Position numbers and translations under genes: made by a program. A stretch of DNA of 64,000 bases. Origin: an uncultured Campylobacterales bacterium (GTDB lineage: Bacteria > Campylobacterota > Campylobacteria > Campylobacterales > Arcobacteraceae). Below are positions 55,545-58,183 of the stretch, piece by piece (position 1 is the first letter of the stretch; every line of letters begins with the position of its first letter). Location: assembly GCA_947503785.1 (NCBI GenBank), contig CANNFB010000005.1, forward strand, positions 62,001 through 126,000, given 5' to 3'. The notes beneath the pieces were generated by a model, which saw only the letters and a list, made by a program, of their open reading frames with translations, was not told the origin of the DNA and made no database searches.

Positions 55545-55565
55545 CTTGACAAACATACACTCAAG
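55545..55565. promoter_or_regulatory. HAIR element (HspR operator) over the clpB -35
   Basis: CTTGACA-AACATAC-ACTCAAG matches the HAIR consensus CTTGAGT-N7-ACTCAAG with exact spacing: the right arm is perfect and the left arm matches at 5 of 7. The left arm contains the -35 hexamer, so HspR binding would block the promoter. Confidence 0.75.
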
Positions 55566-55575
55566 GTGCTATAAT
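55546..55575 (+). promoter_or_regulatory. clpB promoter (-35 TTGACA, -10 TATAAT)
   Basis: A consensus TTGACA (55546-55551) and TATAAT (55570-55575) are separated by 18 bases. Such a full -35/-10 pair is unusual for this phylum and implies strong expression when not repressed. Confidence 0.8.
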
Positions 55576-55579
55576 TTTA

Positions 55580-55606
55580 TTAGCAGTTAAACATAAGGAG
55601 TGCTAA
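55580..55606. promoter_or_regulatory. CIRCE element (HrcA operator) ending at the clpB start codon
   Basis: TTAGCAGTT-AAACATAAG-GAGTGCTAA matches CIRCE (TTAGCACTC-N9-GAGTGCTAA): right arm perfect, left arm 7 of 9, spacing exact. It contains the ribosome binding site AAGGAG and abuts the ATG at 55607. Confidence 0.8.
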
Positions 55607-58183
55607 ATGAATAAAATTTTTGAAAAATTAACAAACCAATTATCTGAGACAATTGATTCAGGTGTTGCATTATCATTACATAATAAGAATCAAGAAGTAG
55701 AAGTTATACATCTTCTATGGGCTTTATTAACAAATACAAATTCAGTTTTAAACCAATTATTAAATAAAATGAATATAGATAAAGCAGCTATAGTTCTAGA
55801 GGCTAAATCATACGCCCAAAAACTTCCAGCTGTATCATCTGTAACAAAAGAGAATATAAAAATATCAAGAAATCTAGCTCAAAGTTTAGAAAAAGCAGAA
55901 GGTCAAGCTGCAAAGCTTGGTGATAAGTTTATTGCAATTGATTCATGGCTTATTGCAAACTTTGATTCACCAGAGTTAAAAGAAGTTTTAGGAAAGTATA
56001 TAGATTTAAGAGAGGCAGCAAAAGAGCTTGAAGCTATGAGAGCAGGAAGTACTATCGATTCTGCTAGTGCTGATGAAAACTTAGAAGCTTTAGGTAAGTA
56101 TGGAATTGATTTAAATAAAATGGCTATTGATGGAGAACTAGATCCTGTAATTGGAAGAGATGAACAAATTAATAGAATGATGCAGATTCTAATAAGAAAA
56201 ACAAAAAACAATCCAATACTCTTAGGAGAGCCAGGTACTGGTAAAACTGCGATTGCAGAAGGACTTGCTCAAAGAATTGTAAATAAAGAAGTTCCTACAT
56301 CTTTAATGAATAAAAGAGTAGTTACACTAGATATGAGTGCATTAATAGCAGGTGCAAAATATAGAGGTGAATTTGAAGATAGATTAAAATCTGTAATTGA
56401 TGAAGTAAAAAAAGCTGGAAATATAATTTTATTTATTGATGAAATTCATACAATTATTGGTGCAGGTGCTAGTGAAGGTTCTATGGATGCAGCTAATATT
56501 TTAAAACCAAGTCTAGCTCGTGGTGAGTTACATACTATTGGTGCAACAACACTTAAAGAGTATAGAAAGTATTTTGAAAAAGATACTGCAATGCAAAGAA
56601 GATTTCAACCTGTAAATGTTGATGAACCAAGCGTAAATGAAGCTTTACAAATATTAAGAGGTATAAAAGAGAAATTAGAAACGCATCACAATGTAACTAT
56701 TAATGATTCTGCACTAATAGCTGCAGCAAAATTATCGCACAGATATATAGCAGATAGATTTTTACCTGATAAAGCTATTGATTTAATAGATGAAGCAGCA
56801 GCAGAACTCAAAATGCAAATAGAATCAGAACCAACTGTTCTATCAACATTAAAAAGAGAGATTCAAACTATTAATGTAGAAAAAGAAGCTCTTAAAATGG
56901 AAAAATCTAAGAAAAATGACCAAAGATTAGAAGAGATAGAAAAAGAACTTGCGAATTTAAGCGAAGAAAAACAAAACTTAGAAACAAGATTTCAAAATGA
57001 AAAAGAAACTTTTAATGCAGCAAGTACTTTAAAAGCAAAAATTGAAGAACTTAAAACAAAAGCAGAGCGTGCTAAAAGAGAATCAAAGTTTGAAGAAGCT
57101 GCTTCTATTGAGTATGGTGAAATACCAAGTTTAGAACAAAAGATTAAAGAAAATGAAGCTAAGTGGAATAGAATGCAAGAGCAGGGTACACTTTTAAGAA
57201 ACTCTGTAGATGAAGACGCAATTGCAAGTATAGTTTCTAGATGGACAGGAATTCCTGTAAATAAAATGATGGATTCAGAAAAAGAAAAAATATTAAAAGT
57301 TGAATCTGTTTTAAAAGAAGATGTAATAGGACAAGATGAAGCTTTAAAAGCAATAAGTAGAGCAATTAAAAGAAATAAAGCAGGATTAAGTGAAGATTCT
57401 AAACCTATTGGTTCCTTTATGTTTTTAGGCCCTACAGGTGTTGGTAAAACTGAAGCTGCAAAAACACTTGCAAAATTCTTATTCGATGATCCAAAATCAT
57501 TAATAAGATTTGATATGAGTGAATATATGGAGAAACATGCAGTAAGTAGATTAATTGGTGCAGCTCCTGGATACGTTGGATATGATGAAGGTGGACAGTT
57601 AACTGAAGCAGTTAGAAGAAAACCTTACTCTGTAATACTATTTGATGAAATAGAAAAAGCACATCCTGATGTATTTAATATCTTACTTCAAGTTTTAGAT
57701 GATGGAAGATTAACTGATAATAAAGGTGTTACAATTGACTTTAAAAATACAATTATTATCTTAACTTCGAATATTGGTAGTTCTAAGATTATAGAAATAG
57801 AGAATAAGGAAGAAAGAAGAAAAGAAGTTCTAAATGATTTAAAAGCTTATTTTAAACCAGAATTTTTAAATAGACTTGATGACATTATAATTTTTGAACA
57901 ACTAGGTCTTGAAGCAATTACTAGTATTGTTGATATTATGTTTAATAGTATCAAGGTTAAATTAGAAGAAAAAGATATTAGTATCTCATTAACACAAAAT
58001 GCAAAAGCTTATATTGCAAAGGCAGGCTTTGATCCAGTATATGGAGCAAGACCTTTAAAAAGAGCAATTTATGAAATAGTTGAAGATAGACTTGCTGACT
58101 TGATTCTAGAAGATAAAGTTTCAGAAGGCTCAAAAATAGAGTTTGATGTAGTAAATGATGAGGTAATTGTAAACTTATCATAA
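55607..58183 (+). CDS. clpB: ATP-dependent disaggregase ClpB
   Basis: An 858-residue Hsp100 protein: N-domain (about 1-145), AAA-1 with Walker A '[16 protein letters not shown]', a coiled-coil M-domain (about 400-520), AAA-2 with Walker A '[17 protein letters not shown]' and Walker B '[13 protein letters not shown]'. It dissolves protein aggregates with DnaK. Expression appears to be under double repression by HspR (HAIR) and HrcA (CIRCE), judged from the operators overlapping its promoter and ribosome site. A terminator-like hairpin follows. Confidence 0.97.

Follow-up and report, generated by a model that had tools for sequence, protein, structure and literature searches.

Predicted joint control of clpB by HspR and HrcA in Arcobacteraceae

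The clpB gene in the window (the whole stretch of DNA analysed, 64,000 nucleotides from an uncultured Campylobacterales bacterium) is preceded by two inverted repeats, one of the HAIR type predicted to bind HspR and one CIRCE predicted to bind HrcA, and the locus raises the question of whether a single promoter answers to both repressors. The gene product is assigned to ClpB by TIGR03346, with a score of 1171.6 bits against a curated cut-off of 1232.1, and its residues 1-150 share 98% identity with Poseidonibacter lekithochrous; the source genome is a Poseidonibacter, of the Arcobacteraceae.

The two repeats lie within a compact, consensus-like promoter (Table 1). The HAIR departs from the consensus used here (CTTGAGT-N7-ACTCAAG) at two of 14 positions and the CIRCE from its own (TTAGCACTC-N9-GAGTGCTAA) at two of 18, in both cases within the left arm, and the spacings of exactly 7 and 9 bases given in an earlier note on this DNA are confirmed, as are its placement of the HAIR over a consensus -35 and of the CIRCE with its end at the ATG. 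That note had also described the operators as overlapping and the CIRCE as lying on the start codon; in fact a 14-bp gap (55566-55579) separates the repeats, whose centres are 38 bp apart, and the 3' edge of the CIRCE adjoins the ATG at 55607 without covering it. The Shine-Dalgarno sequence AAGGAG runs from the CIRCE loop into the right arm and is in part covered by the CIRCE; in relatives this sequence is retained as (A/N)AGGAGTGCTAA. The HAIR sits over the -35 hexamer and the spacer, and the CIRCE covers the transcription start predicted near 55582.

Table 1. Features of the clpB promoter region, in window coordinates.
Feature	Positions	Strand	Basis
HAIR-type inverted repeat CTTGACA-AACATAC-ACTCAAG, predicted HspR operator	55545-55565	+	sequence; conserved in relatives
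-35 hexamer TTGACA, within HAIR left arm	55546-55551	+	sequence
-10 hexamer TATAAT, 18-bp spacer from -35	55570-55575	+	sequence; conserved in relatives
CIRCE TTAGCAGTT-AAACATAAG-GAGTGCTAA, predicted HrcA operator	55580-55606	+	sequence; conserved in family
Shine-Dalgarno AAGGAG, from CIRCE loop into CIRCE right arm	55595-55600	+	sequence
clpB, 858 aa	55607-58183	+	TIGR03346 ClpB, E = 0

The CIRCE and the pairing of the two repeats are beyond chance. At up to three mismatches the window contains one CIRCE against 0.02 expected; across the whole genome the element occurs at six places, against none with a reversed control, and a HAIR and CIRCE pair at an offset of 30-40 bp was absent from 5 Mb of random sequence generated by a first-order Markov model. 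Chance is thus ruled out as the origin of the CIRCE and of the pair, but not of the HAIR alone, for which the window contains four matches at up to three mismatches against 3.2 expected. The frequency of such matches in an AT-rich window, and the coincidence of the left arm with the -35, would suit a promoter under HrcA only, in which the apparent HAIR is a -35 hexamer with a chance CTCAAG in the spacer. Since the left arm doubles as a -35 consensus, the right arm alone argues for HspR; it is held at exact spacing, as CTCAA or CTAAA, in most relatives, and is missing both at groESL and in most of the genomes that lack hspR and still have TTGACA and the CIRCE. Control by HrcA alone is, in our judgement, very unlikely.

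The proposal of dual operators on clpB has also stood up in other respects, with both repressor genes found in this genome and the arms conserved when clpB upstream regions were compared in relatives. The hspR gene (L006:6745-7137, 130 aa) lies after cbpA, and its product matches the NCBIfam HspR equivalog NF047375, scoring 115.4 bits where the cut-off is 105. The hrcA gene (L015:634-1425, 263 aa) was located by its position before grpE and then supported with NCBIfam; its product matches NF003033 with an E-value of 1.2e-69 and a score of 234.9, 13 bits under the cut-off of 248, and TIGR00331 matches its N-terminal part, while the Pfam profile PF01628 gave no match. The promoter of hrcA-grpE-dnaK carries a HAIR and a CIRCE in the same layout as at clpB, that of cbpA-hspR a HAIR only, and that of groESL a CIRCE with no HAIR, which argues that the HAIR is no by-product of promoters with a CIRCE. 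A CIRCE-like site with three mismatches lies upstream of htpG. Near htpG there is also a second MerR-type regulator (L013:684-1022, contig C4 of this genome, G000), with 34% identity to HspR over about 70 residues; many relatives have a comparably weak MerR match.

Across 104 Arcobacteraceae genomes, the strict HAIR and CIRCE pattern was present in 86, and the reversed pattern in none. Of 97 genomes, 79 have a strict pair at clpB by comparison of pattern coordinates with clpB starts (reversed control, 0), and most of the strict matches elsewhere fall at hrcA. The distance from HAIR start to CIRCE start is 34 or 35 bp in clpB promoters of the family with both elements. The HAIR at clpB is conserved in Arcobacteraceae and in most other Campylobacterota; outside Arcobacteraceae, a HAIR without a CIRCE is the usual state at clpB. 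Among these more distant genomes, which come without completeness figures, several with no hspR match retain a clpB HAIR, and some with hspR have no HAIR near clpB.

Loss of hspR within the family bears directly on the role of the HAIR. Fourteen of the 104 genomes have no hspR match, and the strict pair is absent from all 14. The clpB start could be read in 12 of these, 11 of them 92-100% complete and one (G051) 86% complete, and none of the 12 has a clear HAIR in its clpB promoter. Nine (G044-G052) have a near-perfect clpB CIRCE with no or one mismatch, one (G039) has a CIRCE with three mismatches, and two (G037, G038) have no recognisable CIRCE, the best matches showing eight to nine mismatches. 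The three-mismatch HAIR match in G044 falls inside its CIRCE; G047 has at clpB a remnant that resembles a HAIR with five mismatches and keeps the usual offset of 34 bp, and G052 retains a three-mismatch HAIR-like repeat at hrcA. At clpB, then, the HAIR has clearly gone along with hspR, but the rule is not without exception when other promoters are included. The strict pair is present at clpB in 79 of the 85 genomes with both hspR and a clpB start. The promoters of two of the other six were read directly: G072 has a looser pair (three mismatches in the HAIR, two in the CIRCE), and G043, with an hspR match and 7% contamination, has a CIRCE and no HAIR; the remaining four are G022-G024 and G077. 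The ClpB tree indicates at least three independent losses of hspR on well-supported branches, with the HAIR lost alike in all three, although three independent pairs are too few for significance (sign test, p = 0.25).

The absence of a clpB HAIR from hspR-less lineages lends added support to control by HspR and HrcA, for which the comparative evidence is good, and the dual-operator arrangement at clpB is real and very likely functional. The same survey bears on the possibility that clpB is under HspR only, as in C. jejuni, the CIRCE being a relic or too weak for HrcA. The two left-arm mismatches of the CIRCE, and the usual presence of a HAIR alone at clpB outside the family, are in keeping with that reading; however, the clpB CIRCE is conserved, with its right arm almost fixed in 79 of 97 genomes, and its near-perfect state in nine of the 12 hspR-less genomes again speaks for HrcA. 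We give control by HspR alone very little credence.

A role of the CIRCE in the leader RNA, to which the earlier note had drawn attention, was also considered: the element might act mainly as a thermometer-like hairpin that hides the Shine-Dalgarno sequence, with transcription under HspR. The extension of AAGGAG into the CIRCE right arm agrees with this, but the predicted start cuts the left arm, the leader folds from that start with only -4 kcal/mol (z = 0.09), and the conserved left-arm mismatches, opposite the Shine-Dalgarno side, would weaken the stem. A regulatory leader with a stable fold was therefore rejected, and we regard a mainly RNA-based role as extremely unlikely.

Taken together, the layout and its conservation make it highly probable that clpB is transcribed from a sigma-70-type promoter doubly repressed by HspR and HrcA. 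We infer that HspR bound at the HAIR, on the -35 and spacer, would block RNA polymerase and that HrcA bound to the CIRCE across the start site would add repression. Binding of the two proteins may be cooperative, as in C. jejuni, a suggestion drawn from the fixed spacing and the distance between repeat centres. Heat would relieve one or both repressors, so that clpB would be induced together with hrcA-grpE-dnaK.

In C. jejuni, HspR and HrcA have been footprinted on repeats of this kind, and the two proteins contact each other and show cooperative binding (PMC7464140). The clpB promoter described here resembles the C. jejuni hrcA-grpE-dnaK and groESL promoters (Phrc and Pgro), in which HspR sites lie upstream and the CIRCE over the start site, and the spacing is similarly close, with 11 and 27 bp between footprints at Phrc and Pgro and 14 bp between repeats here; those promoters, however, have several HspR sites upstream of the core promoter, whereas a single evident HAIR covers the -35 and spacer at clpB (PMC7464140). 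It also resembles C. jejuni PclpB in that HspR would lie over the core promoter, but C. jejuni clpB is reported to be under HspR alone, with dual control at hrcA and groESL (PMC7464140, PMC12131804), and the promoter described here has a CIRCE across the start site in addition. Conversely, groESL is dual in C. jejuni (PMC7464140) and has a CIRCE only in Arcobacteraceae. The available excerpt of a Helicobacter pylori account likewise describes repression of groESL and hrcA-grpE-dnaK by HspR and HrcA through HAIR- and CIRCE-like sites, in agreement with the earlier note; HspR sites in that species have their centres 72 and 117 bp ahead of the start, unlike the HAIR on the -35 here, and within that excerpt clpB is not described as a dual target (PMC6032397). 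Our literature search, in which few subscription journals were covered, returned no paper on an HspR/HrcA circuit in Arcobacter and no binding or expression data for Arcobacteraceae. Judged from operator content, the clpB pairing is a rewired version of the circuit known from Campylobacter and Helicobacter, with the predicted wiring of clpB and groESL the reverse of that in C. jejuni. This would extend dual repression to clpB and would mean that two families of Campylobacterota differ in the wiring of the regulon; the repeated loss of hspR, with the clpB HAIR gone and the CIRCE mostly kept, amounts to a natural experiment on two repressors sharing a promoter.

The CIRCE left arm at dual promoters is TTAGCA(G/A)TT in most genera; at groESL it is near perfect, as in nine of the 12 hspR-less clpB promoters. 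In a comparison that ignores relatedness, this pattern would fit a weak HrcA site in need of help from HspR. A fuller reading, which we regard as somewhat less likely than not, is that the Arcobacteraceae circuit has been rewired so that a fixed-geometry HspR-HrcA pair jointly represses clpB and hrcA-grpE-dnaK and HrcA alone represses groESL, the weakness of the CIRCE at dual promoters serving to keep HrcA dependent on HspR, and the near-perfect clpB CIRCE of hspR-less lineages being a compensation.

Upstream of hrcA in genus g8 (L155-L162, all eight genomes), the core promoter lies between two CIRCEs, the first placed before the -35 and the other covering the start region. The idea that the extra, upstream element arose in response to hspR loss was set aside, as degraded copies of it occur in the hspR-bearing G053 and G072, and one in G043; this upstream CIRCE may predate the loss.

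A third HAIR and CIRCE promoter in this genome (L005:5876-5936, contig C11:60875-60935) has a perfect TTGACA-17-TATAAT core and was found in G000 alone among the 104 genomes. No chaperone gene lies behind it; the next plus-strand ORF, about 250 bp away, encodes a 45-aa basic protein, and an Rfam search at the site gave no match. It is a candidate for a heat-controlled small RNA or small protein. In three relatives (G062, G086 and G087), extra HAIR and CIRCE sites (L237, L238 and L239) precede two small ORFs, one encoding a 72-aa DUF2188 protein (a PF09954 match, tested on the copy in G062) and the other a cysteine-rich protein of 72-73 aa; both may be additions to the HspR/HrcA regulon.
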